From the NCBI GenBank assembly GCA_014359355.1, contig JACIZP010000163.1, positions 1-37,768 of the forward strand: 37,768 nucleotides of DNA, in the 5' to 3' direction. Position 1 is the first letter of the stretch. Every line of letters starts with the position of its first letter. The stretch comes from Calditrichota bacterium. Lineage in GTDB: Bacteria; Zhuqueibacterota; Zhuqueibacteria; JANLFK01; Oleimicrobiaceae. A program made the translations under genes and the position numbers. The notes beneath the pieces were generated by a model. That model was not told the origin of the DNA. It did not search any database and worked only from the letters and a program-made list of their open reading frames with translations. This document shows positions 10,681 through 30,370 of this stretch, in pieces.

Positions 10681-13059
<2,379 letters not shown>

Positions 13060-13185: not shown

Positions 13186-14625
13186 GTGGCACAGGCGAAC
13201 TACGCAGAGCTGAGGCAGCGCTTTGAGCACGCAGGCCAGGGGCATGTATTCCGCTTCTGGGAGGAACTGACCCTCGCAGAAAAAGAGCAACTTTTGGCGC
13301 AAGCAGCCAGCATCGACCTGGCCCTCATGGAAGATCTGTGGCGTCGCTACATTCTCACACCGCAAAACCGCTTTTTTGAGGGCGAGCTTGACGAGCCGGA
13401 TGTCATCCCCGTGCCGCGCACGCCCGAGCAGACGGCGCAGGCGGCTCAAGCACGCCTGCGTGGCGAGGAGGCCTTGCGCACCGGCCTTGTGGGTGTCATT
13501 CTGGTCGCAGGGGGACAGAGCTCGCGCTTGGGACGCCCTCATCCCAAAGGGTTGCTGCCAATAGGACCCCTTACCGGCAAGACTCTGTATCAGTTTCACG
13601 CCGAGAAGATCTTGGCCATCAGCCGGCGTGTCGGAAAGCCCATCCCTTGGTACATCATGACCAGCGAGACCACCCACGCTGAAACAGTGGCCCACTTCCG
13701 CGAGAACCGCTTTTTTGGCCTCCCGGAAGACTCGGTGTACTTTTTCCAGCAGAACATGATCCCGGCCATGGACGAACAGGGCAAGTTCTTCTTGGAGGCC
13801 CGCCACCGCATCTTCGTCAACCCTGATGGCCACGGTGGCCTGCTCAAGGCGTTGAGCAGAAGTGGTGCCCTCCACGACATGCAAAGACGCGGGTTGAAGT
13901 GGCTCTTCTACTTTCAGGTCGACAACGTGCTGATCAAGATCTGCGACCCAGTGTTCCTCGGCTATCACCTGCGCGAGGGTGCAGAAGTGTCTGCCAAGGT
14001 GCTTCGGCGGCGCGATGGCCTGGAGAAGATGGGCATTGCCGGCAAAATCGATAGCAAACCTGTCGTGATCGAGTACAGCGACCTGCCGAAGAAGCGATTG
14101 GCCTCTCTGCTGCCGGACGGCAGCCTCCGTTACTGGGCCGGCAGCATCGCGATCCACGTGTTCAATGTCGAGCTGCTGCAGCGGCTGCAGGAATCGGGGT
14201 TCACTCTGCCGTACCACGTCGCGCACAAGAAGATCCCCCACCTCGATGGGGCGGGAAGGGTGGTGGAACCTGAGAAGGAGAACGGCTACAAATTCGAACA
14301 GTTCATCTTCGACGTGCTGCCCCAAGCCCGGAAGGTGGTGTTCATGGAGGTGGCCAGGGACGAAGAGTTCAGCGCGATCAAGTACTCAGAAGGCGCTGAC
14401 TCGCCCGACACCGCTCGGAGGGACATGATTCGCCTGTGGGCTCGCTGGCTGGAGAAGGCAGGCTGCCGCGTGCCGCGCGGTGCCGACGGCGAGCCCAAGT
14501 ATCCCATAGAAATCAGCCCGCTGCGCGCCTTGGATGCCGAGGAACTTGCTGCCAGTCTGTCTACGCCGCTTGCCATCGACGGACCGCTCAATTTGGAGAC
14601 AGAAGAGACCACCCGTGAGCACTGA
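13186..14625 (+). CDS. UDP-N-acetylhexosamine pyrophosphorylase-like nucleotidyltransferase (UAP1/UDPGP family)
   Basis: Predicted to join UTP and a sugar 1-phosphate (GlcNAc-1-P or Glc-1-P) into a UDP-sugar, releasing PPi. The 479-aa product has the UDPGP/UAP nucleotide loop VILVAGGQSSRLG followed by PKGLLPIGP, a VNPDGHGGLLKALSRSG block, FYFQVDNVLIKICDPVFLGY with the metal-binding Asp, and late ENGYKFEQFIFD. This is the eukaryote-like UAP1 type, not the bacterial GlmU type. The start is a GTG with GAGAGG nine bases upstream, giving MAQANYAELRQRFE, a plausible UAP N-terminus. It opens the series leading to the YdbH-like gene; UDP-sugar supply for envelope glycans is the likely role, but the exact sugar cannot be read from sequence. 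Confidence 0.88.
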   Translation: MAQANYAELRQRFEHAGQGHVFRFWEELTLAEKEQLLAQAASIDLALMEDLWRRYILTPQNRFFEGELDEPDVIPVPRTPEQTAQAAQARLRGEEALRTGLVGVILVAGGQSSRLGRPHPKGLLPIGPLTGKTLYQFHAEKILAISRRVGKPIPWYIMTSETTHAETVAHFRENRFFGLPEDSVYFFQQNMIPAMDEQGKFFLEARHRIFVNPDGHGGLLKALSRSGALHDMQRRGLKWLFYFQVDNVLIKICDPVFLGYHLREGAEVSAKVLRRRDGLEKMGIAGKIDSKPVVIEYSDLPKKRLASLLPDGSLRYWAGSIAIHVFNVELLQRLQESGFTLPYHVAHKKIPHLDGAGRVVEPEKENGYKFEQFIFDVLPQARKVVFMEVARDEEFSAIKYSEGADSPDTARRDMIRLWARWLEKAGCRVPRGADGEPKYPIEISPLRALDAEELAASLSTPLAIDGPLNLETEETTREH

Positions 14626-14653: not shown

Positions 14654-17600
14654 ATGCATGGTCAGGCACACACATTCCGACGCAATAGGGGCCGCTGGCT
14701 AAGAGTGTTGGGAGTTGCCGTCGCGCTCTACGTCCTTTTCCTCGCTGTGGGGGGGCTCCTGCTTCGTGTTTTGGTGCCGGCGGACCGTCTGTCGCGGGCG
14801 GTACTAGCCACCCTTGAACACCGCCTCGGCCGTGAACTCTCCGTGGAAAGCATCCAGTTCGGCCTGTTCCGAGGCGTCACCCTGAAAGGGGTGCGCATGG
14901 CGACGCCCCTGGGCGGCGACAGCACCGCATTCCCAATCAAGAGCGCCAGTGCCGAGCGCTTTGTGCTCCACTACCGTCTGCGTTCGCTCTTCAGACGTCG
15001 CCTGGAGATTACCGAGATCGCTCTCCACAAACCGCGGCTTGAACTGTTTTTCTCTGGTCCTTCGCCTGCCGCGCCAGCCGCTGCACCTCCTCCCCAGGAC
15101 TCGCTGCCGCGGGCGATATCCGTTCCGTTGAGTGTGACATTGCAACGCCTGGAAATCCGCGATGCCGACTGCATGGTCACCATCGCCAGCGACACATCAC
15201 GTCTGGAATTCGGCCTCGCCGGGTTTACCTTTGTCGTGTCCACGCTCTATCTGCCGCGGGGCAAGGGTGAGGCCTGGCAGCAGGCAGCGGCTAAGGTAGC
15301 GCTCTCGTCCAATAAGGCTCCGGTCTATTTCCGGCAAGGCGTTGTAAGTGCACCTGGGCACACTGAGGTGAAGTGCCTCTTGGACCTGCAACTCGCCGCC
15401 GAGGCACGCGGGCTTTCGGACCTTGATGCAACGCTCCTCATCGCCGCGCACCAAGGGCAACTCCAGCTACCGGGCGGTCCAGCTTTCTCCAGTGCTCTGC
15501 CCTCTGTGGAAGTCAAAGCCGCGGTCCGCGGGAACATGCCGCAGGGGGAGTTTCTTGTGGAGAGGCTGACCCTTGGCCTTGGCGGGCAGACCCTTCTGGC
15601 ATGCCGTGGGCAGCTCAGCCACCTCAATAGCCAGCCAAAGATGCGCGCGGAGGTGTTAGAAGGCGAGATCTCTTTGGGCAAGCTACTAGGCACGGCAAAG
15701 CCCCTCCTCGCCGAGACGCCATTCTCAGCCCTGCTGCCCGAGCGGCTCTCCGGGACGTTGTCCTTTTCCGGCACGAGCCTTGATTGGGCCTTTCCCTCTC
15801 CTTCTGGCGGAAGTTTTGTGAACGCAAATACCGCTGTGGATCTGCGCGATCTTTCGTTGGTCATGCGCGACGTGGCGACCGTGGAACGGCTCACGCTCGT
15901 CGCGCGAGGGGCCGCCACCGCCGACAGCGCTGGTCTGCGCAAGGGAGAAGCCTCTGCGTTGCTGGCCTTTGACCACGTGGCGTACAACTCACCAGCGCTC
16001 CCCATGACCGCCTCCGGGGGCAGGCTCGAGTTGAAGGCCCTCGCCCCTGAGAGACGGAGCTCGCTCATTACAGACGGCACGCTGAGGGTCGCCAGCCTCA
16101 TGGGAGGAGAGTTGGAGGGCGAGGTGCATCTCTCCACAGGCCGGGCTGCTGCGGCCTGGCGCGGCGATGTGGAGATGGCTGTGCGTCACTTTCCCTTGGG
16201 GTCATTCACCGAAGGACAGGTGCACGGCAGCGTGAGCAGCTCCTTGGGTATGAGAGTGCGAGGGCTCAGCGACATCGGCCTGGAGCTCGCCGTCGGCGTT
16301 GACTCCTTGGCTGCTCTCTTGCAGGGCCGGGAGCAGGCCCTGCCGCCCTTGGAGCTCACCGCGCTGGGCAAGCTGCGCACCAATGTGCGTTTCGACACGC
16401 TGCTGCTGGACTCGTTGCTGCTGCAGGTTGCCGACATGGTTTCGGCGCGTGTGGCAGGAAGCTTTGCGCTCCAGGGACAGCGCTTCTCCCTTGCCTTGCA
16501 GGACCTGACGGTGAACCACCGCCCGCTGCCGCGCCTGCTTCCGGTTGAGCTTCGCGAGCAAATAGGAGTCGTCGCGCTTGAAGGTGCCACCCACGTGCGG
16601 GGCAGCGCTTCTGGCCAACTGGTCGCTGGCACACCTCGCGTCAATGCGCAAGCCTCCGTGAGCTCCTCCATCCGCGCCTCGCTGCCGGCGCTGGGGCTGC
16701 AGGTGTCGGGCACCAAGTTGGGTGCCGAACTCGCGATGACGTCTTCTCTTGCCCGGGCCACAATTGAAGCCCGCGTGGACACCTTGACCATAGCTCAGAT
16801 GCGGGCAGCGCCCATCGTCGGCAGTGGCGCTCGTTTTGAGGTCTCCCTGCCAGAGCTGCAGAGCCTCGTGCTGACGCAGGGGGAAATCTGGGTGCCCGCC
16901 TTTGCCGCAAGAGCAGACCTTTCCGGCTGCATGACACCAGGCGCTGCAGGGCCATCAGGCGCAGTACAGGTAGCCTTCTCCGTGGAGGCCACCGATACCG
17001 TGCGCGTCACCGACACGGTGGGCTTGTTGGGCAGGCTGCTGGCCAAGGCAACCATGCGCATGGAGGGTTCGGTGGCAAGCGTGGAAGGCAACATCTCGAT
17101 TCCAGGCCTTGCCGTGTATCTACCAGCCGGGACCTCGTTGAAGGGCATCCGGGCCTCAATCCCCTTTTCCCAGGCCTTTGACCTCGAGCGCATGGAGCTT
17201 GTGTCGTCGCCCGGGGAGCGGCACGCGTACTCGAGCCCGGCCGGCGCCTTTCCTGCGCTCTTCGCCAGACACTTTGCCGAGACCCTGCCCGAACAGGGCT
17301 GGCTGACCATCGATCGGCTATCCTTTGCCGGCTATGGGGCCAGCAACCTCCGCATGCAACTGTTTGTCGGCGGAGGCAAGCTCATGGTGCAGAGCATACT
17401 GCTGGATGCATACGACGGGAACTTTGGCGGAAGCTTGGCAGTAGAGTTTCCGGCCCTGGATTTGGCACGTGCCCAGTACAAGGTAGAAGGGCACCTGTCC
17501 GGACTGAATTCGGCCCTGCTGGCCGCAAGGACCGGGCAGTCGCCAGAAAAGGGGATCATCAACGCCAACTTCCGCTTTGCCGGCACCGGGTTAGATGTGC

Positions 17601-17914
17601 GGAGGGGAATAGAAGTGGAGGGGTTGTTTCGCATCACCGACATTGGGCCACGGGTGGCCGACAATCTGTTGCGCTCTCTGGACCCTCAAGGCCTGGATGC
17701 CGGCATTCGCAGTGCGCGTTTCTTCATCAACCACGGGTTCAAGCCGCGCGAGATATCCTTTGACCTGCGGCACGCCCACCTCTACCCCAGCATTCGCCTC
17801 TCGCAGCCCTGGTACTTCCCAGTGCGGGTGGGCGGTGGCAAAGTGGAGCTGGCGCGCATTCCGGTGGCCTTCTTCTTGCAGATGATCAAGCAGGAAGCTG
17901 TGCCGACGTACTGA
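14654..17914 (+). CDS. YdbH/AsmA-like envelope protein (predicted intermembrane lipid transport)
   Basis: Large membrane-anchored periplasmic protein of the AsmA-like group. It has an N-terminal transmembrane helix (about residues 16-38, LGVAVALYVLFLAVGGLLL) after a basic start. An AsmA-type opening follows (LEHRLGRELSVESIQFGLFR, VTLKGVRM). About 900 residues of repeating beta-strand sequence come next, and then a conserved C-terminal part (IINANFRFAGTGLDVRRGIE, RSARFFINHGFKPREISFDL). AsmA-like proteins such as YdbH, TamB and YhdP form long grooved beta rods thought to carry phospholipids to the outer membrane. At 1086 aa it is longer than E. coli YdbH. The next gene encodes a YdbL/DUF1318-like protein, the partner found in the ydbH-ynbE-ydbL operon, which is the main reason for preferring YdbH. 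No clear Shine-Dalgarno is seen. Confidence 0.82.
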   Translation: MHGQAHTFRRNRGRWLRVLGVAVALYVLFLAVGGLLLRVLVPADRLSRAVLATLEHRLGRELSVESIQFGLFRGVTLKGVRMATPLGGDSTAFPIKSASAERFVLHYRLRSLFRRRLEITEIALHKPRLELFFSGPSPAAPAAAPPPQDSLPRAISVPLSVTLQRLEIRDADCMVTIASDTSRLEFGLAGFTFVVSTLYLPRGKGEAWQQAAAKVALSSNKAPVYFRQGVVSAPGHTEVKCLLDLQLAAEARGLSDLDATLLIAAHQGQLQLPGGPAFSSALPSVEVKAAVRGNMPQGEFLVERLTLGLGGQTLLACRGQLSHLNSQPKMRAEVLEGEISLGKLLGTAKPLLAETPFSALLPERLSGTLSFSGTSLDWAFPSPSGGSFVNANTAVDLRDLSLVMRDVATVERLTLVARGAATADSAGLRKGEASALLAFDHVAYNSPALPMTASGGRLELKALAPERRSSLITDGTLRVASLMGGELEGEVHLSTGRAAAAWRGDVEMAVRHFPLGSFTEGQVHGSVSSSLGMRVRGLSDIGLELAVGVDSLAALLQGREQALPPLELTALGKLRTNVRFDTLLLDSLLLQVADMVSARVAGSFALQGQRFSLALQDLTVNHRPLPRLLPVELREQIGVVALEGATHVRGSASGQLVAGTPRVNAQASVSSSIRASLPALGLQVSGTKLGAELAMTSSLARATIEARVDTLTIAQMRAAPIVGSGARFEVSLPELQSLVLTQGEIWVPAFAARADLSGCMTPGAAGPSGAVQVAFSVEATDTVRVTDTVGLLGRLLAKATMRMEGSVASVEGNISIPGLAVYLPAGTSLKGIRASIPFSQAFDLERMELVSSPGERHAYSSPAGAFPALFARHFAETLPEQGWLTIDRLSFAGYGASNLRMQLFVGGGKLMVQSILLDAYDGNFGGSLAVEFPALDLARAQYKVEGHLSGLNSALLAARTGQSPEKGIINANFRFAGTGLDVRRGIEVEGLFRITDIGPRVADNLLRSLDPQGLDAGIRSARFFINHGFKPREISFDLRHAHLYPSIRLSQPWYFPVRVGGGKVELARIPVAFFLQMIKQEAVPTY

Positions 17915-17943: not shown

Positions 17944-18525
17944 ATGGCACGACACATCGCAGCGGCAGTGCTGCTGGCTGGCATGGTAGTCGGGTGCAGC
18001 ATCCGCGCACCTGAGGTGCAGGTCACCGGCGAGAAGACGGCCTTGGAGAACCAGGTGATTGGCACCTACCAACAGGTGGCGGACGAGAGCTGGATGATCG
18101 CTTCCACGCGTGCAGCAGACAGCGACCAGAAGGCGCAAATGGCCACCGAGAAGAAGGAGGTCCTCGATGCGGTGCAAAACCGCAAGTTCAACAAGGACGA
18201 CATCGACGAGTTCAAGCGCGATGGCGCCTTGGGCGAGAACAATCAGGGCTTCCTGGAGCTCCGGCCCTCGTCCCGGCTGGATCAGGACGCGGAATATCGC
18301 ACCCTGGTGGTCCGGATCATGAACGAGGAGAACCGCGATCGCAAGATCATTTACGATCGGGTCTTGGAACTCAACCCCAATGCGGGACGGGCCGGTTCGG
18401 CTGCCGTCTATGCAGTCTTTGCCAAGATGAACATCGAGGAATCCGCACCTGGCACCTGGGTGCAAGCTGAAGATGGCACCTGGTATCGCAAAGGCAAGGA
18501 GGCTGCTCCCAACGAAAAGAAGTAG
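17944..18525 (+). CDS. YdbL-like DUF1318 lipoprotein
   Basis: Predicted periplasmic-facing lipoprotein of 193 aa. The signal MARHIAAAVLLAGMVVGC places the lipid-modified Cys at 18. The C-terminal half (about 85-185) has the DUF1318/YdbL pattern: KFNKDDIDEFKRDGALGENN, then VVRIMNEENRDRKIIYDRV, and a closing PGTWVQAEDGTWYRK, like the GxWxR end of YdbL. E. coli YdbL is a soluble periplasmic protein, whereas this one has a lipobox and so could combine the YnbE (lipoprotein) and YdbL roles; that is inference. GGAAGGAGG stands well before the ATG. It is 29 bases after the YdbH-like gene and 9 bases before the giant CHAT gene. Confidence 0.85.
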   Translation: MARHIAAAVLLAGMVVGCSIRAPEVQVTGEKTALENQVIGTYQQVADESWMIASTRAADSDQKAQMATEKKEVLDAVQNRKFNKDDIDEFKRDGALGENNQGFLELRPSSRLDQDAEYRTLVVRIMNEENRDRKIIYDRVLELNPNAGRAGSAAVYAVFAKMNIEESAPGTWVQAEDGTWYRKGKEAAPNEKK

Positions 18526-18534
18526 CGGCACCAG

Positions 18535-21500
18535 ATGATCTCCCTGCGGCGCGACATATCCGCGGTTGGGGCTCTCTTGTGGCTGCTCGCGGGCCCACTT
18601 TCGTGCGGCCTGGCGCATGCGCAAGCACCCCTGCCCCATCAGGTGACCACGCACCCAGCCGACGATTTGAGCCCGTCGCTTTCTCCTGACGGCAAGTGGG
18701 TTGCGTTCGCCTCCACGCGGAGCGGCAATCAGGACGTATGGGTGCGACCAGTCCATGGCGGAAAGGCGTACCAGATCACTACACATCAGGCCGACGACTA
18801 TTGTCCGGCCTGGAGTCGCACCGGTGACCGCCTGGCGTTTGTGTCTAAGCGTTCCGATGCCGCCGGCGACATCTGGATGGTCGAGCTCCGTCGCACCGGC
18901 AAAGCGATCCTCGCCAGGGGGGAACCGGTCAGACTCACCGACTATTTAGGCGAAGACGCCTTCCCCTGCTTTTCGCCGGATGGCACAGAGGTGGCCTTCT
19001 GTTCGGACCGCACCGGCCGCATGGAGATCTGGGTGCTCAGGCTGCGGTCAAGGTCGCTCAGAAGGGTCACCTCGCAGGGTGGGACCGAGCCCAAGTGGTC
19101 GCCCGACGGTACATGGCTGGTCTACACCGCGTTCGACACCCTCCGCCGCAAGAGTGTCATCGCCGTCACCCCTGCGCAGCTGGAGACCCAACCAGAGCTG
19201 CCCAGGGAAGTGCCCATCACCGATGGCTCGTGGCTTGACTGCCAACCGGCCTGGTCGCCTACGGGTCACGAGGTCGTCTTCTGCCGCTTCCCCTACGACA
19301 CCAATCACGATGGCAGAATAACGCCTGATGACAATCCGGTGATTGTCCGTGCGCCGGTCAGTCTGCCGTCGTCCCCCTCGCAGCGTCCTTCGGCGCCGAC
19401 GGACCTGCAACTGTGGCTCACCAGTGGCGCGGATTTCGCTTTCGCCCCAAACTGGGCGAGCGGCGAATCGGTCTGTTACGCCTCGAATCGCAGCGGTAAC
19501 CTCGACATCTGGGCGGTGCCTGCAAATGGGCTCATCTCTCGCCAGGCCTCTGCCGCGAGCCAGCTCTCCTATGCGCGTGAGGCTTTTCCCATCCCGGCTT
19601 TGTCGTCTTCAGCCCTATCGGCGCAACAGACGGCGGCTCTTTACGAACGCCTCTTGGCCCTCCGGCGGGTACGTGACTTTTTTCCAGCGGAACGGGCCCC
19701 TGTGGCCTCGGCCAAGCTTGAGATGGCGCGCACCTATCGCGCTCTTGGGCAGGGAGCCATGGCACGGCAGGCGCTCCAGGAGCTCGAGGCAGAATTCCCC
19801 GAACAAGAGGAGGTGCGCGCTCTGGCGGCCGTGGAGAGCATCGACATGGACATGGCCGAAGGGAGGATCGATTCACTCGCTGGAATGCGCACCTTGGCAC
19901 GCCTTCTGGATAACTATCGGCAGCAACCGCCCCTGGCCGTGCCCATCGCCATGCGCTTGGCAGGCCTGCAGCTTGCCACCGCTCAGCATGGCGAGGCTCT
20001 CACCACCTACGGTTGGGTGTTGCAACACCAGGGCGAGAACCGCGGGGCGGGGGCCGAGAGCCAACTTCGCATTGGCGACTGCCTTCTCGCCCTTGGCCGC
20101 GGCGAGGAGGCGGAACGTGCCTATGCTTTGGTGGTAGACCGCTATCCGGAACAGGAGGCCCCGGCGGCGCAGGCCATGGAGCGCCTCTTACATGAGGAGT
20201 TACTGGCCAGCGACCGAGTGGCCCTCTTGCGCCGCTGCCGTGAGGTGACCAACGTCTACCGCTTGCGCCTGCCGCGGGTTGCCGCCTTGGCGCAACTCCG
20301 CGCAGCGGAGCTTCTCCTGGCATCTGGCGACTTCGAGGCGGCGCAGATCGAACTGGCGGCCCTCGAGGCTGACTTCGCGGACCAGCGCACGGTGGTCGCC
20401 CGCAGCCGATTGCTCCTTGCCAAAGCTTATCAAGACGGGGGCGACTGGCGCAAAGCGGTGAGCGTTCTCGAACAAGCACAGGCGGAGTTTGACACGCTGG
20501 CCGGAGGTCGTTGGGCAGCGGCAGCACGGCAGGCCCTTTTCCGCGCCCTCATGCAATCGGGCGAGCAGCTGCTCCAGGCTGCCTACTTTGCGCTCGCCGC
20601 AGCACGTTATCGCCAGGCACTTGAAGTGGCACCCGGGGACATCGAGGCGCACCGGGGCTACATCCAGGCGCAGTACTACGGCCGAGCAATTGACCAGGCC
20701 ACCCGCGAATACCAGGCGCGCCTGGCGCAACACCCTGATGACCCGGTGCTCCTCTACTGCCTCGGCCTATGCCTTTCGTTCAAAGCCACCGAACAAGCGG
20801 AGCTCTATGGCCACCAGGGCCGCATTGACCCTGAGCTCCTGGCTCGCTCCAACAGCATCCTTGACAGGGCCCTCGAGCGCGACTACCGGATGGTGTACGC
20901 CTACCTGACCAAGAGCTACAACTACGAGATGTTGGAGACCTATGACCGCTTGCGCCGGAGTAGACCGCAGACGCTCCCGCGAAGGCTCCTTGAGGCGATC
21001 TCTGCGCCGCTTGTTTCGGTGCTCAGAACGGTCACCATGACCAAGGAAGAGGCCCAAGTACGCAACTACGAGCGAGCCATCGATGCCCTCACCGTGGCCC
21101 TCAGCCTCAATGACGAGAAGGAAAACCCAAAGTTAGAGGCCCGTCTTTGTCGCAATCTGGCCAACAACTACTACAACCTGGCCGAGTTCGGCTATCAAAA
21201 GGCCTACGAGTACTACCATCTCACCCTGCGCTTTGATTCCACCTTCGCGAGCCGCCGCGATGAAGCAATGATGATGGAAAGAATGGGCCATTGCGCACTG
21301 GTGCTGGAGGACTTTGAACGGGGCCCAACCTACCTGCGCCGCGCCATCGACCTATATCGCGACCTCGGCAGAGAAGAACTGGTGCTGCTCAACATAAAAC
21401 GGCTGGCCATGCTCTACCAGGTGGCAGAGGACTATCTCTCAGCTGCCGAGTATTTCGAACAGGCGATCGCCATGGAGACGCGACGCGGCAACCTCGAGGA

Positions 21501-24500
21501 GGTGCGGCGACTCCATCGCAATCTCGCTTACAACTACTGGTTGTTGGGCGAGCCAACCGACGCCTACGCGCATGCCATTCGCGCCCGTGACCTTCTGGAC
21601 AGCGGCAAGCTGAAGGAAGCGAAGGGCACATCCTCGCGCATTCAGGTCGGCGTGTTAGGGTGGTATATCCCCATACCCTTTGTCGACTTGAGCAAGATGG
21701 GGGCGATTGGCGGCAGCGCAGCTTTCGGGTTCACCGCTGTGGAGGAGCGGGCGTTGGTCTACACCATCCTCGGCAACATCCTTGTGGAAACGAAGCGCTA
21801 CGAGGAAGCCATCCGCGAGAACGAGAAGAAGCTGGCCCTGTACCGCAAACGGAAGAATGCCCGCGCTGAGGCAGCGGTGCTCAACAACCTCGGCTACCTG
21901 CAACTGTTGAAGGGGGACCCTCTCAGCGCCTGGCAGCAGTTCGAGCGCAGCTACGACCTTTGTCTGAAGCAGAAGATCGTGGCCGGCGCGGTCGTCAACG
22001 CCATCAATCTCGGACAGCTGGCGTTGCTCCTTGCGGATCCGGCGCTACGCGATGCCGCCGCAACCCGGCTGGACCTCGCGTTGAGCTTCACGGAGGGGCA
22101 GTCGCGGGTTCTGGTGCAGCGGCGCGTGCAACTTCTCAACCTCCTTGGCGCGCTCACTTTGGAACACCAGGTTCAACACACTGGGGAAGCGGACCTTGAA
22201 GACTGCGTGCGGCAAACTGTGGAGGCCTTCGAGCGCGCCGGCTATGCGCAGACGTACTTCGAAGAAGCGCTTAGCCTAAGTCTGATGCGCCGGCTACCAC
22301 GAGAAGAAGCCCTTTCCAGGATGAATTTGGGGCGCTGCTGGGCCGTGCTCGGCGAATGGGAGCACGCAGCCCAACATCTCCTGCAGGCGCGTCGCCTGTG
22401 CCAGACCAGAGGGTACGGCGATCTGCTCTGGCAGGTGAACCAAGGGCTTGCCGAGCTCGCTGACCGCCTCGATGAACGGGCCAGGAGGGCCTTGGGACTG
22501 AGCCTCCCGCGGGTCTACTTTGCCGAGGCGCTCGCCGAGTTGCGCGCCGTGAGCGAGGCTGGCATCACGCGCCTGGTGCTTCCCATGGAGCGCAACCGCC
22601 ACCGCCAATTGTACGAGGAGTGCGCGTTTCATTTGGCGGCCGTCGGCGATACGGTCGGCGCTTTGCAGACCGCAGAGGAGATGCGGGCACAGGCTTTTTT
22701 AGATGCCACCTCCGGCGAGGTCATACGCCTGAGCAGCCCCACGCGCACCAATCTGCTCAACTGGGTGCGCACCTTCCGGGAGGAGTTGACAGCGTCGGAG
22801 CTTAGGGTGCGGCAGCTGAGCACGGTGCTGCAGCCGAACGCCCCGGAGCTGGTCAGGTGGCGCGCCGCGCGGGATAGCTTGCGCCGCGAATACGAACAGG
22901 CCTTCACACGACTCCGCCAGGAAGCGCCTGAACTGGAGGGGCTGGTGACAGTTCACGCCCCCTCGTTAGCGACCGTGCAGCGTACCCTGGAAGGCGGCGA
23001 GGTGGCATTGGCCTTTCTGGTGGGCGATCGGCGGACGCTGCTCTGGGCAGTCACGGCCCAGCGTGTGGCCATGTTCAGCATTCCTGCGGGCGTCGAGGCC
23101 ATTCGCCACTTCACCGAAGGTTTTCTCAACAGCTCAGCAGACGACAGCTCACGCCTGACGGTGGCCGCGCTCTTTCAGCCCGCCGCAGGACTGCTGCGAG
23201 GAGCGCGCCGGGCCATTATCGTGCCGGACGGGCCTCTTTTCCAGCTGCCGATGCAGGCGGCACTGCTCACGTCGTTAGGACAGGACGCGCCCGCAGTGAC
23301 AGTCTGCTCCAGCCTCAACAGCTACCTGCTCGCTGCAAGTCGCCGCACCGTGGGTGGCCCAGTCGTCTTCCTTGCGGACACGCTCCTGCAACAGCCTCTT
23401 AAGGAGCTCGGCTACGTGGTTGTCCTCCTGCCCACCTTGCCGGGCAAAGAAACGCCAGCGCGAGAAGTGTCTCAGGTCCTCCTGGGGAGCAACATCGTAC
23501 ACTGGCGAGCCACCTGGCAGTGGCAAGAGACGGCACCGCTGCACTCGGCGTTGCAGTTGGCCGACGGCCAGCCGGGCTTTTCGCTGCGTCTGCTCGACCT
23601 CTTCGAGGTGGTATCCAATGCCACCGTGTGCGTCATAGACGGAGGGAACGCGGCAGCGTACGGATCGGCTGCACAACTCCTGGACCGCTTGCTGGCCTTC
23701 AGTGGCACCGCTGCGGGCTTGTTGGTGGACGAGGGAACACCGCGCGAGGCACGCCTAGCATTTTACGATGCCTTCTATCGCCAGCTCATGGAAAGACCTC
23801 CTGCTGAAGCCTTCCGCGCGGCAGTGCAGGCAGTCATGGAGGAGGGTAGGGGCACTCTGTCCGTTCAGCTCTTGGGTTACGGCGGCATGAGCAGGGTCGA
23901 GGCCAGCACCTATGCCGAACGGGCGCTGGCAGGCAAGGTGAGAGCAGGGCTTCAGGCAGAACAGGACAAGGACTGGGGCGATGCGGTGCGATTCTATGAG
24001 GAAGCCTTGGCAATGGCCACCGCCCGCCAGGACAGCGCCAGCATCGAGCGCCTCCGCATGCTGATCGTGCGCGCCTCTGCCAACGGGGGCCTTGTGCGCA
24101 AGACTATTCAGTACCAACGCTTGCTGGCCGCCGAGGCCGACCTCAAGGGAGATACGCAGCTTCAGGTGCGGCGCTATCGCAACCTCGCTTCGCTGTACGC
24201 CCAGGCTGAGGACTATGGCGCAGCCATTGCGGCGATGGAGCACGTCATAGAGGTTGCCAGGACCTCTCACGAGCAACTCTTGCCTGAGCTGCACCGCGAG
24301 CTGGGAATTTTGCATGAGCAGGCCGGGCATTATCAGGCTGCGGTTGAGCAATACGAGGCCTCACGCGCGCTGTACGCCCAGGCGGGCGCCAACGAAGGCC
24401 AAGCCCTGAACCTCAGCGACATGGGGCGCGTGGCGCTGCGTTACCTGGAAGACTACCCCCTGGCTCTCCAGCACCTGTCTGCTGCCCTTGCGCTGTTGGA

Positions 24501-26802
24501 GGGCCAAGCGCCCTCGGCAACACTGGTGGAGGTCCTCAACAACCTGGGTCTCGCCTGCGAAATGATGGCCGATTACCGCGCGGCGGTCGACGCGCAGCGT
24601 CGGGCCAGAGAACAGGCGGAAAGGCTGCAACTGCCAGACAAGGTGGCCCTGTGCGAACATTACCTTGCCAACCTCTTTTGGAAAATGGGTGACTATCAGG
24701 AGGCCCTGCAGCACAACCGGCAAGCCTTGCAGGCCTTCGAGAAGCAGGGCGACTTGTCCCTGCAGGCCCTGGCCCTGACAACGCGAGGGCTCATTCAGCT
24801 GAGCATTGGCAACGCACCTCAGGCCTTGCGCGACCAACACAGCGCTTTGGAGCTGGCAATTCGCACGGGCGACCTGCTCGACCAGGCGACAATTCGCAAG
24901 AACATTGGGCTGGTGCATGTCACGCTTGGCGACTATGAAAAGGCGCTCGGAGAATTCGCAACGGCAGCCCACCTTGACAGCACTCTCGGCTCGCAACGAG
25001 GCCTATCCTATGACCTGCGCAACATGGGTGCCCTGTTCCTGCAGAAGGGTCGGTTGACCGAGGCCGACCAGTCGCTACAGGCAGCTCTCGCATTGAGCAA
25101 GGCGGTGGGTGACCGCCGCAACGAAGCGCAATGCCTCTACCACATCGGGGCGGTGCGGCGCGCGCAGCGGAACTGGGAACAGGCTGCTCTTTACTTGGAG
25201 GAAGCAGCCGCACTTGCCCGCTCGCTGTTCGTCCCTGAGGTGGAGTGGCGTGCCCTCCACCAACTGGGCTTGCTGCAGCGCGAGGCCCGCCGCCTCGACG
25301 AGAGTCGCGCCAGCCTGCTGCAGGCGGCGCAGGTCGTCGAGCAGATGCGCGCCCGCATCAAGGTGGCGGAGCATCAGGCTGGCTTTATCAACGACAAACA
25401 AGAGGTCTACGCGGACCTCATCGACCTGCTGATAGAAATGGGACGGGACGAGGAAGCTTTCGCCATTGCGGAACGGGCCCGCTCCCGAGGCTTTTTGGAC
25501 ATGCTCGGCAACCGCCAGCTCGCCCTGGGCGCGCGCGCCAGCCAGGAGCTGTACGATGCCCTCTCGGCCTTGGAAGCGCAGATGCGCAACGTCCAAGAGG
25601 AGATCGCCCGCCTCCGCAGTGTCGAACCAGAACGAGCGAGCGCCCCCCAGAAGGAACGGTTGCAACAATTGAACGGGGAGTTGCTTAGGCTGCGCGGCAG
25701 CTATGAGAGCCAGCTGGTCAGGCTCAAGGAATCGGACCCCCGCTTGGCAGATATGGTCACCGTCGACCCATGGCCGTCATCTCGCTTGCAGACGCTGTTG
25801 CCCCCGGGCGTGGCGGTCGTGGAGTATTTTGTCAGCAGGGACCGCCTCTTCATTTGGCTGGTGACCAGCACGACGCTCAAGGCCTGGGCCACGCCGCTCG
25901 GCCAAGAAGAACTCTACAAGCAAGTGGACCAGTTGCGCCAGGCAATCAACCAGCTCTCCCCCGTGACGCAGCGCAGCGCCCGGCTGTGGCAGGCGCTCCT
26001 CGCACCGGTCGCCCCCTCTCTGGAGGGCAAGGCCACCCTGGTCATCATTCCGCACGGGCCTCTGCACTACTTGCCCTTTGCGTGCCTGGTGGACCCTCAG
26101 GGTCGATATCTGATAGAGACTTTTGCCTTGGCAACCGCGCCCAGCGGCACCGTCCTGGGCATGTGCATGGAGGGCGGAAGCCGGTTTCTTTCCACGCCTC
26201 GCCAGGAGTTCCGCGTGCTCGCCTTGGGCAATCCTGCACTGCCAGGCCAGAGGCGACCGCTCCCCATGGCAGCCAAGGAGGTAGAAAGCATCTCCCGGAG
26301 CTTTGCCAAAGTGGACAAGTTCCTGGGCACCGCCGCCACCGAGACGGTGGTCAAGAGCGCCCAGAGCCCCTACGACCTCTATCTCTTCTCCTGCCACGGC
26401 GAGTACGATCCAGCCAACCCCTTATTTTCCTCGCTGCTCCTGACGCCCGATAAAGACAACGACGGGCGGCTGGAGGCGCGCGAGGTGTTTGCTTTGCGCA
26501 TGGAGAGCTATCTGGTGGCCATGAGCGCCTGCGAGACAGCGCTGAGCTCTATCGCCGGCGGTGACGAGATCATTGGCCTGACGCGCAGTTTTGTCTTCGC
26601 CGGGGCCTCTTCACTGTTTGCCAGCCTGTGGAAAGTCGATGACTTGGCCACGGCGGTCATGGTGAAGCGCTTCGTGCGGTACTTGGCGGAGGACGAAAGC
26701 AGAGCCCGTGCGCTCCAGCGCGCGCAACTGCTCGTGATGAATGAGGTTAACGCCCACCCGGCCTACTGGGCAGCGTTCCAGTTGATAGGCGACTTTCGGT
26801 AA
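18535..26802 (+). CDS. Giant exported propeller-TPR-CHAT-TPR-CHAT protein (caspase-like)
   Basis: A 2755-aa protein with a signal peptide (about 1-31, cleavage after GLAHAQA). Residues about 36-340 are TolB/PD40-like propeller repeats (SPSLSPDGKWVAFAST, FPCFSPDGTEVAFCSDR, APNWASGESVCYASNR). A long TPR array spans about 385-1370, then a coiled linker and a first CHAT domain (about 1475-1785). A second TPR array (about 1800-2310), linker and second CHAT (about 2400-2755) follow. CHAT domains are caspase-like Cys peptidases. CHAT2 has the dyad His2621 (FSCHGEYDP) and Cys2666 (AMSACETAL); in CHAT1 the matching sites read Trp1661 and Gly1704, so it looks inactive. EF-hand-like loops occur at 255-266 and 2639-2650. 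It probably senses something through propeller and TPRs and cuts a partner in the envelope or outside; the substrate is unknown. It follows the YdbL-like gene by 9 bases with no clear Shine-Dalgarno, so translation is probably coupled. Confidence 0.9.
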   Translation: MISLRRDISAVGALLWLLAGPLSCGLAHAQAPLPHQVTTHPADDLSPSLSPDGKWVAFASTRSGNQDVWVRPVHGGKAYQITTHQADDYCPAWSRTGDRLAFVSKRSDAAGDIWMVELRRTGKAILARGEPVRLTDYLGEDAFPCFSPDGTEVAFCSDRTGRMEIWVLRLRSRSLRRVTSQGGTEPKWSPDGTWLVYTAFDTLRRKSVIAVTPAQLETQPELPREVPITDGSWLDCQPAWSPTGHEVVFCRFPYDTNHDGRITPDDNPVIVRAPVSLPSSPSQRPSAPTDLQLWLTSGADFAFAPNWASGESVCYASNRSGNLDIWAVPANGLISRQASAASQLSYAREAFPIPALSSSALSAQQTAALYERLLALRRVRDFFPAERAPVASAKLEMARTYRALGQGAMARQALQELEAEFPEQEEVRALAAVESIDMDMAEGRIDSLAGMRTLARLLDNYRQQPPLAVPIAMRLAGLQLATAQHGEALTTYGWVLQHQGENRGAGAESQLRIGDCLLALGRGEEAERAYALVVDRYPEQEAPAAQAMERLLHEELLASDRVALLRRCREVTNVYRLRLPRVAALAQLRAAELLLASGDFEAAQIELAALEADFADQRTVVARSRLLLAKAYQDGGDWRKAVSVLEQAQAEFDTLAGGRWAAAARQALFRALMQSGEQLLQAAYFALAAARYRQALEVAPGDIEAHRGYIQAQYYGRAIDQATREYQARLAQHPDDPVLLYCLGLCLSFKATEQAELYGHQGRIDPELLARSNSILDRALERDYRMVYAYLTKSYNYEMLETYDRLRRSRPQTLPRRLLEAISAPLVSVLRTVTMTKEEAQVRNYERAIDALTVALSLNDEKENPKLEARLCRNLANNYYNLAEFGYQKAYEYYHLTLRFDSTFASRRDEAMMMERMGHCALVLEDFERGPTYLRRAIDLYRDLGREELVLLNIKRLAMLYQVAEDYLSAAEYFEQAIAMETRRGNLEEVRRLHRNLAYNYWLLGEPTDAYAHAIRARDLLDSGKLKEAKGTSSRIQVGVLGWYIPIPFVDLSKMGAIGGSAAFGFTAVEERALVYTILGNILVETKRYEEAIRENEKKLALYRKRKNARAEAAVLNNLGYLQLLKGDPLSAWQQFERSYDLCLKQKIVAGAVVNAINLGQLALLLADPALRDAAATRLDLALSFTEGQSRVLVQRRVQLLNLLGALTLEHQVQHTGEADLEDCVRQTVEAFERAGYAQTYFEEALSLSLMRRLPREEALSRMNLGRCWAVLGEWEHAAQHLLQARRLCQTRGYGDLLWQVNQGLAELADRLDERARRALGLSLPRVYFAEALAELRAVSEAGITRLVLPMERNRHRQLYEECAFHLAAVGDTVGALQTAEEMRAQAFLDATSGEVIRLSSPTRTNLLNWVRTFREELTASELRVRQLSTVLQPNAPELVRWRAARDSLRREYEQAFTRLRQEAPELEGLVTVHAPSLATVQRTLEGGEVALAFLVGDRRTLLWAVTAQRVAMFSIPAGVEAIRHFTEGFLNSSADDSSRLTVAALFQPAAGLLRGARRAIIVPDGPLFQLPMQAALLTSLGQDAPAVTVCSSLNSYLLAASRRTVGGPVVFLADTLLQQPLKELGYVVVLLPTLPGKETPAREVSQVLLGSNIVHWRATWQWQETAPLHSALQLADGQPGFSLRLLDLFEVVSNATVCVIDGGNAAAYGSAAQLLDRLLAFSGTAAGLLVDEGTPREARLAFYDAFYRQLMERPPAEAFRAAVQAVMEEGRGTLSVQLLGYGGMSRVEASTYAERALAGKVRAGLQAEQDKDWGDAVRFYEEALAMATARQDSASIERLRMLIVRASANGGLVRKTIQYQRLLAAEADLKGDTQLQVRRYRNLASLYAQAEDYGAAIAAMEHVIEVARTSHEQLLPELHRELGILHEQAGHYQAAVEQYEASRALYAQAGANEGQALNLSDMGRVALRYLEDYPLALQHLSAALALLEGQAPSATLVEVLNNLGLACEMMADYRAAVDAQRRAREQAERLQLPDKVALCEHYLANLFWKMGDYQEALQHNRQALQAFEKQGDLSLQALALTTRGLIQLSIGNAPQALRDQHSALELAIRTGDLLDQATIRKNIGLVHVTLGDYEKALGEFATAAHLDSTLGSQRGLSYDLRNMGALFLQKGRLTEADQSLQAALALSKAVGDRRNEAQCLYHIGAVRRAQRNWEQAALYLEEAAALARSLFVPEVEWRALHQLGLLQREARRLDESRASLLQAAQVVEQMRARIKVAEHQAGFINDKQEVYADLIDLLIEMGRDEEAFAIAERARSRGFLDMLGNRQLALGARASQELYDALSALEAQMRNVQEEIARLRSVEPERASAPQKERLQQLNGELLRLRGSYESQLVRLKESDPRLADMVTVDPWPSSRLQTLLPPGVAVVEYFVSRDRLFIWLVTSTTLKAWATPLGQEELYKQVDQLRQAINQLSPVTQRSARLWQALLAPVAPSLEGKATLVIIPHGPLHYLPFACLVDPQGRYLIETFALATAPSGTVLGMCMEGGSRFLSTPRQEFRVLALGNPALPGQRRPLPMAAKEVESISRSFAKVDKFLGTAATETVVKSAQSPYDLYLFSCHGEYDPANPLFSSLLLTPDKDNDGRLEAREVFALRMESYLVAMSACETALSSIAGGDEIIGLTRSFVFAGASSLFASLWKVDDLATAVMVKRFVRYLAEDESRARALQRAQLLVMNEVNAHPAYWAAFQLIGDFR

Positions 26803-26819: not shown

Positions 26820-28115
26820 ATGGCGCAAGTCATGGAACATGCCGTAACCATCAGGTCGCGTCTACAGTTGGAGGCGATCGAAGAGAGGATATTGGCCCCT
26901 TATGCCGCCCGGTCATCGCAAGGAGAAACGACCCGCCTGTACCCTGAGGAGCCACATCCTTATCGCACCGCCTTCCAACGTGATCGCGACCGCTTGGTGC
27001 ACTCCCGCGCCTTCAGGCGACTGAAGCACAAGCGCCAGGTATTCCTCACCGACGAGGGCGACCACTACCGCACGCGCCTCACGCACACGCTTGAGGTCTC
27101 CCAGCTGTCGCGCACCTTGGCCAAGGCGCTAGGGCTCAACGAAGAGCTGGTGGAGGCGATCGCCCTAGGCCATGACCTTGGCCACACGCCCTTCGGGCAC
27201 ATAGGCGAGGTGGTCTTGGGCAAAATTATGGCTGGCGAAGACACCCTGGACGGCCTGCTGAGCTCCGAACCGTTGGGCGGCTTCAAGCACAACTACCAGA
27301 GCCTGCGCGTGGTGGACCATATCGAACGCAAGTACGCGCGGCCCGGGCTGAACCTCACGGCACCGGTGCGCGAAGGCATTCTCAAGCACACGCGACTGCA
27401 GGAGGGGATACACTACCCCGACTTTCAGAGCGAGGGCCTCCACCTCGAACAGGAGGTGGCTGGCACCTTGGAGGGGCAGGTGGTGGCCATCTGTGACGAG
27501 ATCGCTCAACACACCCATGACCTGGAAGACGGCATCCGCGCCGGCTTTGTGGCGCTTGACCAGGTGCGCAAGGTGGGCATTGTCCAACGCCTGGAGCGCG
27601 AGCAGCGCATCGACGCGCTGTGCGAACGCGACCCCTTCCTGTATCGCAATCTGCTCATCAAAGCCCTGATTGATGCCCTCATCTCCGACCTCCTGCACAC
27701 CAGCGTGCGCAACTTGGAGCGGCTGAGGAAGATGGGACCCTTCCCCAAGCGGTTCACGCAGGTGGTCGTGCACTTTAGCGACGAGTTAGAGCCACTCCAC
27801 CGGGAACTGGATGAGTTCATCGACGAGGAGATTATCTACCATGCCTCAATCTACCGGGCCGACGATGTTGCGGTACGCACCATTCGCGAGCTTTTCAAGT
27901 TCTATCTTCGCTTTCCGTCGCAACTGCCGGAGTATGTGCTGGGTCGCCTCTCCTCCCGGGGGAATCGACCACAATTAGTGCGGGCGATCTGTGACCATAT
28001 CGCGGGCATGAGCGACAACTACGCCCAGACGGAATTGACCCGCGTGGAACAGATCGTGCGCAACATGGACGAGAGTCGATCGCAAGGGGCCACTACCGAC
28101 CAGGAGCTTGCGTGA
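26820..28115 (+). CDS. dgt: Deoxyguanosinetriphosphate triphosphohydrolase-like HD protein
   Basis: HD-superfamily dNTP triphosphohydrolase, expected to split dGTP (or other dNTPs) into deoxynucleoside and triphosphate. The 431-aa product has the family N-terminus with HSRAFRRLKHKRQVFL, the first metal His in TRLTHTLEVSQLSR, the His-Asp pair in AIALGHDLGHTPFGHIGE, and a later GFKHNYQSLRVVD motif. The C-terminal region with AICDHIAGMSDNYAQTE is typical of the dGTPase type 2-like group. Its ATG lies 17 bases after the CHAT stop, with GAGGGAG upstream. It overlaps the following ABC gene by 4 bases. Possible roles are dNTP pool control or, as known for some dGTPases, antiphage dNTP depletion. Confidence 0.93.
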   Translation: MAQVMEHAVTIRSRLQLEAIEERILAPYAARSSQGETTRLYPEEPHPYRTAFQRDRDRLVHSRAFRRLKHKRQVFLTDEGDHYRTRLTHTLEVSQLSRTLAKALGLNEELVEAIALGHDLGHTPFGHIGEVVLGKIMAGEDTLDGLLSSEPLGGFKHNYQSLRVVDHIERKYARPGLNLTAPVREGILKHTRLQEGIHYPDFQSEGLHLEQEVAGTLEGQVVAICDEIAQHTHDLEDGIRAGFVALDQVRKVGIVQRLEREQRIDALCERDPFLYRNLLIKALIDALISDLLHTSVRNLERLRKMGPFPKRFTQVVVHFSDELEPLHRELDEFIDEEIIYHASIYRADDVAVRTIRELFKFYLRFPSQLPEYVLGRLSSRGNRPQLVRAICDHIAGMSDNYAQTELTRVEQIVRNMDESRSQGATTDQELA

Positions 28116-28954
28116 GGCTGACGCTGGACAACGTCTCCTACCGCTATCGCCAGGCAGCACCGGGCGCCCGCGTGGCGCTTGACCGCGTGAGTCTGGAGAT
28201 CAAGGAGCGCGAGTTTGTCGCCTTGGTGGGGCCAAGCGGCTCGGGCAAGACGACCCTCATCCAGCATTTCACCGGCCTTCTCCGCCCGACCGCCGGGCGC
28301 GTTCTGGTAGACGGCCAGGAGTTGCCCGAGCGCGGGCCCGCGCTCACTGCCTTGCGCCGCCGCATCGGGCTGGTATTCCAATTTCCCGAACTGCAACTTT
28401 TCGAGGAAACGGTCTTTGATGACGTGGCCTTTGGGCCGCGCAGACTGGGCCTCTCGGAACAGGAAATTGCAACGCGGGTGGAGTGGGCCCTGCGCGCAAT
28501 GGGCCTCGACCCCGCAGCTTTTGCTTCTCGCTCCCCGCACCGCCTCAGTGAAGGCGAGAAACGGCGGGTGGCGGTGGCCGGGGTGCTGGCAATGGACCCC
28601 GAAATGCTTGTCCTGGACGAACCCACCGCTGGCATGGACCCCGCAAGCGTTCGTCGGATTGCCGATGTTCTCAGGAACTTGCACGACGCCGGCAAGACGA
28701 TAGTTCTTGTCTCCCACAATATCGACCTGGTGTACCGCCTGGCCCAACGCGTGATCGTGCTCGCGACAGGCCGGGTGGTGTTCGACGGCCCGAAGGAAGA
28801 GCTTGTTGCACACGAGGCTCTCCTTGTGCGCCACGGATTGGCGTTACCACGTCTGCTGCGCGTGCTGCGGCGAAATCCCCCGCCGCTGCCAGTTGACGTG
28901 CGGCAGCTTCTCTCGTTGGAAGAAGTAGAGCGAGCGCTGCAGAGCTTGAAGTGA
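28112..28954 (+). CDS. ABC transporter ATP-binding protein, ECF/cobalt type (EcfA-like)
   Basis: Cytoplasmic ATPase subunit of an energy-coupling-factor or CbiO-like importer for vitamins or metals. The 280-aa product has Walker A VGPSGSGKTTL, the Q-loop in VFQFPELQLFEETVFDDVAF (the ECF-typical QxPExQLF form), signature HRLSEGEKRRVAVAGVLA, Walker B LVLDEPTAGMDP and switch His in VLVSHNIDLV. A C-terminal tail of about 50 residues with RLLRVLRRNPPPLPVDV is as in EcfA proteins. The start is a GTG sharing GTGA with the end of dgt, with AGGAG six bases upstream. No EcfT membrane subunit or substrate-binding EcfS gene lies beside it, so its partners must be elsewhere. Confidence 0.93.
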   Translation: MRLTLDNVSYRYRQAAPGARVALDRVSLEIKEREFVALVGPSGSGKTTLIQHFTGLLRPTAGRVLVDGQELPERGPALTALRRRIGLVFQFPELQLFEETVFDDVAFGPRRLGLSEQEIATRVEWALRAMGLDPAAFASRSPHRLSEGEKRRVAVAGVLAMDPEMLVLDEPTAGMDPASVRRIADVLRNLHDAGKTIVLVSHNIDLVYRLAQRVIVLATGRVVFDGPKEELVAHEALLVRHGLALPRLLRVLRRNPPPLPVDVRQLLSLEEVERALQSLK

Positions 28955-29278
28955 GCGGATATTTGCCACGTGGCATGGCCCCTGTTCAGAAAAACAACAC
29001 GATTTCACCCCAATTACGGATTTGAAATTGTGATGCAGAGCACAGAGTCAAATGTGAAGAAAATGACAAGGGCCCAAAGAGGAGCAGTTCCCTGGATGGT
29101 CCTTGCAGCTTGCGCCAAGACCATGTTTTCACTTTGCCTTGGCCTGGTAGCGTTCATGCTTTTCAGGCCTGCCAGCGCTCCGTCCTTCCCCGCGAGTGGT
29201 CGATTTTTTGCACACCTTGGCGTGGGCCCGAAGGTGCTCGGGCCATGGCAAGCTGAACCACAACGAGGTGTGCGAGGC
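28955..29278. other. Spacer of 324 bases before the sigma-54 activator
   Basis: The frame of the next gene stays open through this stretch and would encode a hydrophobic segment (AACAKTMFSLCLGLVAFMLF), but no start upstream of 29279 has a good Shine-Dalgarno. Bases about 28983-29070 are clearly more AT-rich than the surroundings, as expected of a promoter region, although no convincing -35/-10 pair was found. A block at 29144-29159 has the GG-N10-GC spacing of a sigma-54 promoter (CTGG...ATGC) but matches the rest poorly. Confidence 0.5.
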
Positions 29279-30370
29279 ATGAGGGACGAGTTGACGGACA
29301 CCCTTCCTGAGGTGTCGGTGGTGGGGTGCGACTTCCCAGAGGTGGCGGAGAAGAGTGGCAGCGGTGCCTTTGGGTTTGACTACTACTACCCCATGGTCAG
29401 TCACAACCCACAGATTCGGCAGATGCTCTCGCTGATCAAGAAGGTAGCGCGGAGCAACGCCACTGTGCTTATCCAGGGCGAGACGGGTACCGGCAAGGAG
29501 ATGATGGCCGGGCTCATCCAAATGCTCAGCCTCCGTGCCGACAAGCCCTTCATCCAGGTGAACTGCGCGGCGCTGCCGGACCAGCTCCTGGAGAGCGAGC
29601 TGTTCGGCCACGAGCGCGGCGCGTATACCGGCGCCTACACCACGCGCATCGGCAAGTTTGAGCTGGCTGACAAGGGCACGCTTTTCCTGGACGAGGTCGG
29701 CGATATGGCACTGCCCACCCAGGCCAAGATCTTGCGTGTGCTGCAGGAGCAGCGCTTCAGCCGCCTGGGGGGCAACCGCATGATCAATGTGGATGTGCGC
29801 CTGATCGCCGCGACCAACAAGGACCTGGAGCGCGAAATAGAGCTGGGCAACTTTCGGCTGGACCTCTACTATCGCCTGAACGTGGTGCAGATCAACATTC
29901 CCCCGTTGCGCGAGCGGCGTGAAGACATCCCCATCCTGGCCGAGTATTTCCGCCGCAAATTCGCGTCGGAGATGAAGAAGGAGGTGGGAGGCTTCACGCA
30001 GGAGACCATGCGGCTCCTCCAGAACCACTCCTGGCCAGGGAACATCCGCGAGTTGAAGAATTTGGTGGAGAGGGCGGTCATCGTTGTCGGCGAAGGGCAG
30101 CAGATTACGCCCAACGACCTCTCCCTCTCCGGCCGTGACTACTTCGCCGCAGGTGGTCAGAATCGCCGCCGGCAAGAGAGTGACTGCGGAGGCAGACTGA
30201 CGACCCTGAATCTTGCCGAACTGGAGCGGACCGCAATCTTGCAGGCCCTGGAGAGAACCGGCTGGGTACAGAAAGATGCCGCCGCGCTCCTCGGCATTTC
30301 ACCGCGGGCCCTCAATTACAAGATCAGTCAACACAAGATCACCCACGAGTCCTGGAAGAAGCATGTGTGA
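29279..30370 (+). CDS. Sigma-54-dependent transcriptional activator (AAA+ plus Fis-type HTH)
   Basis: Enhancer-binding protein that remodels sigma-54 RNA polymerase. From the ATG at 29279 (GAGGTG eight bases upstream) the product is 363 aa. A short N-terminal segment of about 35 residues has no recognisable receiver, PAS or GAF domain. The AAA+ domain follows, with Walker A LIQGETGTGKE, the sigma-54 contact loop GAYTGA (the usual GAFTGA with Tyr for Phe), Walker B TLFLDEVGDM and arginine-finger region RLDLYYRLNV. The C-terminal Fis-type helix-turn-helix reads KDAAALLGISPRALNYKISQ. In-frame GTG 28970 or ATG 29063 would add a membrane-like segment, but both have poor ribosome sites. It overlaps the next gene by 8 bases. 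Its signal and target genes are unknown. Confidence 0.9.
   Translation: MRDELTDTLPEVSVVGCDFPEVAEKSGSGAFGFDYYYPMVSHNPQIRQMLSLIKKVARSNATVLIQGETGTGKEMMAGLIQMLSLRADKPFIQVNCAALPDQLLESELFGHERGAYTGAYTTRIGKFELADKGTLFLDEVGDMALPTQAKILRVLQEQRFSRLGGNRMINVDVRLIAATNKDLEREIELGNFRLDLYYRLNVVQINIPPLRERREDIPILAEYFRRKFASEMKKEVGGFTQETMRLLQNHSWPGNIRELKNLVERAVIVVGEGQQITPNDLSLSGRDYFAAGGQNRRRQESDCGGRLTTLNLAELERTAILQALERTGWVQKDAAALLGISPRALNYKISQHKITHESWKKHV

Follow-up and report, generated by a model that had tools for sequence, protein, structure and literature searches.

Why should a single bacterial protein carry two caspase-like CHAT modules of which only one retains a catalytic dyad? This question is raised by an intact open reading frame (18535–26802, plus strand) in the window, the 37,768-nucleotide stretch of DNA analysed here, which comes from the draft genome of a Calditrichota bacterium (3.79 Mb in 395 contigs). 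Its translation is a giant protein of 2755 aa, a length shared by orthologs in many genomes. The initial annotation suggested that the dead module acts within the chain to regulate the live one; neither the likely signal peptide nor the genetic tie to a YdbH-type envelope system figured in it. Our analysis favours a different reading, to which we give a probability of about one half: that the giant is the periplasmic TPR scaffold of a YdbH/DUF1318-type intermembrane lipid bridge, in which CHAT1 is dead and the live CHAT2 serves as an accessory protease.

Domain organisation of the giant protein

From N- to C-terminus the chain consists of a Sec-like signal, a TolB-like PD40 propeller, a first TPR solenoid, CHAT1, a second TPR solenoid and CHAT2, which forms its C-terminal end; these parts, all on the plus strand, are assigned mainly from Pfam matches. 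The putative Sec signal peptide (residues 1–30, MISLRRD..ALLWLLAGPLSCGLAHA-QA; 18535–18624) is only moderately hydrophobic in the window protein; almost every complete ortholog has a hydrophobic run before its propeller. Judged from these sequences, the giant is likely to be exported via a Sec signal. The propeller (residues ∼36–345; 18640–19569) is covered by four PD40 stretches (E 3e-35) and gives 115.7 bits with the TolB model TIGR02800, which is under the cut-off of 343 and concerns the propeller part only. The first solenoid (19612–22644) is best conserved over residues 700–1120, where identity in the ortholog alignment is 36–80%, and the second (23932–25401) is recognised by the TPR_12 and TPR_2 models.

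The TPR-linker-CHAT module is indeed present twice, as had been claimed, with Pfam, profile–profile and structure comparisons in agreement. CHAT1 with its coiled linker spans residues 1403–1798 (22741–23928) and CHAT2 with its linker residues 2290–2755 (25402–26799). Both exceed the curated cut-off of 24 bits of the Pfam CHAT model (PF12770), CHAT1 with 30.8 bits (E 3e-7; 23167–23844) and CHAT2 with 218 bits (25975–26793). Comparison of the CHAT1 and CHAT2 ortholog alignments as profiles gives 100% probability and an E-value of 1.3e-51 over 388 columns, the coiled linker included, and the motifs noted previously recur in the same order in both copies: the A-E-x-x-R-x-x-x-FLD helix (1380/2312), V-T-V (1471/2408) and W-x-V-T (1502/2438).

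The initial annotation had left room for residues 1475–1785 not being CHAT-like. The AlphaFold models of CHAT1 (residues 1400–1800, window 22732–23934; mean pLDDT 89.2) and CHAT2 (window 25402–26799; mean pLDDT 86.5), which were built from the same ortholog alignments as the profile–profile comparison, both match PDB entries in Foldseek with a probability of 1.00 (E 3e-10 and 2e-14, respectively). Both retrieve the Csx29/Craspase TPR-CHAT protein, separase and DdvA, an anti-sigma factor with a CHAT domain, and the best matches of the CHAT1 model are Csx29/Craspase and separase. Given Pfam, profile–profile comparison, AlphaFold and Foldseek together, CHAT1 as a chance match or a non-CHAT region was rejected. 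Proteins of the ciliary central apparatus (chains in 7SQC, 7N6G and 9IJJ) are matched by both modules as well, which suggests that separase/CHAT-like modules may occur in axonemal proteins.

A dead and a live catalytic site

The CHAT2 dyad is formed, as originally assigned, by His2621 (26395–26397) and Cys2666 (26530–26532), predicted catalytic residues that are kept in 35 orthologs. At the corresponding places CHAT1 has Thr1660 (23512–23514) and Gly1704 (23644–23646). Gly1704 had been placed correctly, in accord with both the hhalign register and the DSSP assignment of the CHAT1 model against CHAT2, while the previously proposed Trp1661 is one residue off, since it is Thr1660 that faces His2621 in the profile alignment. 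The description of the protein as one dead and one live CHAT thus stands. The models differ further in the loop that carries the catalytic Cys, which has ∼12 residues in CHAT2 (from strand 2660–2663 to helix 2676) and ∼1 residue in CHAT1 (from strand 1698–1704 to helix 1706–1722). With Thr1660, Gly1704 and a shrunken Cys loop, CHAT1 is therefore not a protease of the CHAT2 kind; it is a CHAT fold and not a CHAT protease. A normal CHAT1 dyad involving His1656, raised earlier as a possibility, was looked for and not found: this residue aligns with the first, non-catalytic His of the ‘VHLSCHG’ motif in orthologous CHAT2s. The CHAT2 model is weakest precisely at the catalytic loop (model residues 377–381, pLDDT <50) and therefore gives no verdict on active-site geometry.

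Distribution and evolution of the two modules

The giant family is spread through the candidate phylum KSB1, with additional loci in LCP-89 and Delongbacteria; judged by its named relatives, the source genome belongs in or near KSB1. Some match to the giant occurs in 58 of 60 relatives, in some cases through a different CHAT or propeller protein. A profile specific to the family finds the giant in 58 of the 82 genomes of the phylum. The named loci outside the KSB1 set are from LCP-89 (L092), a Lac Pavin bacterium (L095) and Delongbacteria (L097).

Inspection of the dyad places in orthologs bears out the assignment made for the window protein. Cys is missing from the catalytic place of CHAT1 in all readable KSB1-set sequences (51/51), three of which have the His without the Cys, and CHAT2 has both His and Cys in 35 orthologs of the set. 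A complete CHAT2 whose dyad is lost was found in six (G022, G057, G041, G058, G010 and G044), and two further proteins (G005, 1815 aa; G063, 1831 aa) stop immediately past CHAT1 and are not followed by a CHAT2 gene. In this census four sequences are cut by a contig end within the catalytic part of CHAT2, and one genome (G060) falls in no class. The propeller-TPR part is present with no CHAT in G008 and G013. Outside the KSB1 set, CHAT1 is dead and CHAT2 live in the LCP-89 and Lac Pavin proteins, and the Delongbacteria protein likewise combines a dead CHAT1 with a CHAT2 in which His and Cys are kept. A dead CHAT1 with a live CHAT2 is supported as the ancestral state, as far as the family could be followed.

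The CHAT-domain tree groups every CHAT1 in a single clade (support 100) and every CHAT2 in a second (support 94), and the standalone TPR-CHATs from these genomes fall outside both. With one clade for each module, a single origin is likely. That CHAT1 was recruited from another TPR-CHAT family is not favoured, CHAT1 and CHAT2 lying on one side of a branch that separates them from the standalone CHATs with a support of 84 only. The source genome encodes one other CHAT protein, a standalone TPR-CHAT of 799 aa (G000:C301, L063, 3926–6322) that scores 241 bits with Pfam CHAT and also matches Peptidase_C50 weakly.

In the propeller-TPR tree, live proteins separate those with a dead CHAT2 into two clades, both well supported; CHAT2 was therefore inactivated at least two times, and it was lost at least two times more. 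The end branches of the CHAT-domain tree measure 0.35–0.81 for live CHAT2, ∼0.8–2.2 for CHAT1 and ∼3.6 for dead CHAT2. The short branches of live as against dead CHAT2 are expected under selection on CHAT2 catalysis. Live CHAT2 is also the most conserved part of the giant (∼50–55% identity), compared with 20–25% for CHAT1, whose nearly invariant positions are mostly Pro, Gly, Tyr, Phe and Leu. CHAT1, dead throughout, thus looks as if it is still kept for its fold. The family amounts to a natural experiment, in which CHAT1 is dead in every member seen and CHAT2 has been lost independently in at least two clades with the scaffold surviving.

Conserved neighbours and co-occurrence

Upstream of the giant, on the same strand, lie genes for a Lon protease (10681–13059), a UDPGP-family nucleotidyltransferase (13186–14625), a YdbH-like AsmA-superfamily protein (DUF748/YhdP-like, 1086 aa; 14654–17914) and a DUF1318 (YdbL-domain) lipoprotein (17944–18525), assigned from Pfam matches and conserved in synteny. 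Gaps are ∼30 bases between the YdbH-like and DUF1318 genes and ∼10 bases between DUF1318 and the giant. The YdbH-like protein matches Pfam DUF748 with 39 bits (E 2.9e-10), under the curated cut-off of 50, and its assignment also draws on synteny and co-occurrence. The DUF1318 protein scores 51.7 bits (E 1.3e-13), over the cut-off of 27, with a model that also matches the E. coli control. It begins with the lipobox, whose Cys18 is invariant in 43 of 43 DUF1318 proteins, followed by a conserved CS..PE...TGEKT stretch. No separate ynbE was found in the 30-base gap, nor any Pfam match to YnbE, and the DUF1318 protein has the look of a fusion between YdbL and a lipoprotein of YnbE type.

Most of the loci examined have the DUF1318 gene immediately before the giant, and many have the YdbH-like gene adjacent or nearby; where the latter has moved, DUF1318 still adjoins the giant. 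In one branch a gene for a PMT_2-type membrane glycosyltransferase lies between DUF1318 and the giant (L066, 6180–7739; L070, 5683–7221). Over the 82 genomes, giant and DUF1318 are both present in 55 and both absent in 20, with 3 + 4 discordant cases, several of which are fragmented assemblies; for giant and YdbH-like gene the figures are 56, 21 and 2 + 3. The corresponding Fisher p-values, 2.5e-12 and 2.5e-14, ignore shared ancestry. Co-absences are spread over several families (f5, f6, g35, G053 and G045). In the near-complete genomes of f5 and f6, the giant, DUF1318 and YdbH-like genes are all missing together from the whole family. Downstream of the giant (26820–30370) are a dGTPase-like HD protein, an ECF-type ATPase and a NifA-like sigma-54 activator, in an order that is kept only in the closest relatives.

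A search for a marker in the DUF1318 protein that tracks CHAT2 loss, as a possible cleavage site would, gave no clean signal; both DUF1318 and the core are somewhat more diverged in the CHAT2-dead lineages.

Proposed role and alternative explanations

Going beyond what the computation itself shows, namely the two CHATs, the dyad pattern, conservation, synteny and co-occurrence, we infer export, a periplasmic location and a complex with the YdbH-like and DUF1318 proteins. The exported giant would bind its partners through the TolB-like propeller and the long TPR solenoid. CHAT1 would have lost catalysis before the radiation of the phylum and may now be a structural or peptide-binding module, while CHAT2 would be, in its ancestral form, a working Cys-His protease, which we guess is held inactive by the scaffold on the model of Csx29, where a partner repositions the dyad (PMC10028731). 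More speculatively still, the TPR scaffold or CHAT1 might sense that the lipid bridge or the lipoprotein partner has changed, and CHAT2 might then cleave a protein of the envelope, perhaps the YdbH-like bridge or the DUF1318 lipoprotein. Some lineages keep the giant with no working CHAT2, and any cleavage is therefore accessory rather than a core function everywhere. A broader proposal is put forward tentatively, as rather less likely than not: that a separase/caspase-type protease in a lipid-transport bridge controls outer-membrane lipid supply in KSB1 and its sister phyla, with the dead CHAT as sensor or docking site and the live CHAT as effector.

The regulator initially proposed, a CHAT1 pseudo-protease that controls CHAT2 in cis like pseudo-caspase/caspase pairs, is consistent with the presence of both CHATs on the same chain, probably from a single ancient origin, with the combination of a dead CHAT1 and a live CHAT2 from KSB1 to Delongbacteria, and with the pseudo-caspase half of Csx29 touching the activating partner. 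As the main role of CHAT1 it is not supported, since the CHAT1 fold is kept in the six proteins, from two clades, that have lost the CHAT2 dyad and in the two that lack CHAT2. CHAT1 outlasts the death or loss of CHAT2, and its primary role is therefore with the scaffold, control of CHAT2 being additional at most; we regard the cis regulator as unlikely. Repeated loss of the dyad, at least two times and without gene loss, could also mean that neither CHAT is a protease today, both being scaffold binding modules and the CHAT2 dyad a relic. This is quite improbable, as the dyad is intact in 35 highly diverged orthologs and CHAT2 evolves several times faster after losing it, together a strong sign of selection on catalysis.

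Two further explanations concern the setting of the protein rather than its dyads. The giant might only ride along in a conserved operon and have an unrelated function outside the cytoplasm, for instance that of a secreted or surface protease, given that the YdbH-like gene is elsewhere in some families and that the PMT_2 gene can separate DUF1318 from the giant. The joint absence of all three genes in several families, and the adjacency of DUF1318 even where YdbH has moved, make this improbable. The fold matches to Craspase and SAVED-CHAT would suit a TPR-CHAT protease that acts in defence or cell death, as in the CRISPR, gasdermin or SAVED types, but PADLOC assigns no defence family and returns a generic TPR model only, the neighbours are ordinary (Lon, UDPGP, YdbH-like, DUF1318, dGTPase, ECF ATPase), synteny is stable and the N-terminus is signal-like, so that a defence role is very hard to credit.

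Comparison with known systems

If the periplasmic scaffold reading is true, an exported two-module form tied to an AsmA-type lipid bridge places a caspase-like protease in outer-membrane maintenance; to our knowledge, the best characterised TPR-CHAT/separase proteins (Craspase and separase) do not act in the cell envelope. In the open literature neither a tandem dead/live CHAT nor a CHAT protein belonging to a YdbH module was found described, which is weak evidence, most subscription papers being outside the search. Fold, repeats and dyad are all familiar, and the giant is therefore filed among the TPR-CHAT proteins and not as a new kind.

Three AsmA-type bridges of E. coli are proposed to carry phospholipids; one of them, YdbH, works as an inter-membrane bridge with the outer-membrane lipoprotein YnbE (PMC12977461, PMC11784454), from a locus with the order ydbH-ynbE-ydbL (PMC8593681). 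The window shares with this system a DUF1318 protein and, probably, an AsmA-superfamily bridge and a lipoprotein component, but has the lipobox and DUF1318 in one protein, and no separate YnbE was seen. We know of no giant CHAT scaffold in the E. coli YdbH system. TolB has a PD40 propeller in common with the giant, whose match to the TolB model is below cut-off, however, and which has no adjoining Tol-Pal genes.

DdvA of Myxococcus (PDB 8ROT/8RW5) resembles the giant as a membrane-linked CHAT protein that structurally matches both modules; it differs in its size (∼990 aa), its one CHAT match and its being, by PDB title, a transmembrane anti-sigma factor. Eukaryotic separase (C50) likewise combines a helical-repeat scaffold with a pseudo-protease half and an active half of clan CD fold, but has one module only, with no propeller and no signal peptide. 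We are aware of no link between DdvA and YdbH/DUF1318.

The closest structural match to both modules is Csx29/Craspase of type III-E CRISPR, which has a TPR solenoid followed by a separase-like CHAT with a His-Cys dyad. Membership in Csx29 itself was rejected, the NCBIfam model giving 47.9 bits against a cut-off of 300 and the neighbours being ordinary, with no cas7-11. In the Csx29 module a pseudo-caspase half precedes the active half, as in separase (PMC10028731), and by homology the giant chain would comprise four caspase-like halves, only one of them with a dyad. Pseudo and active halves are thus already normal inside TPR-CHAT/separase modules, and the novelty lies in the whole second module rather than in the pairing: Csx29 has a single module in ∼700 aa and partners a CRISPR system, whereas the giant is apparently exported, contains a propeller besides its two modules and is encoded among envelope genes.
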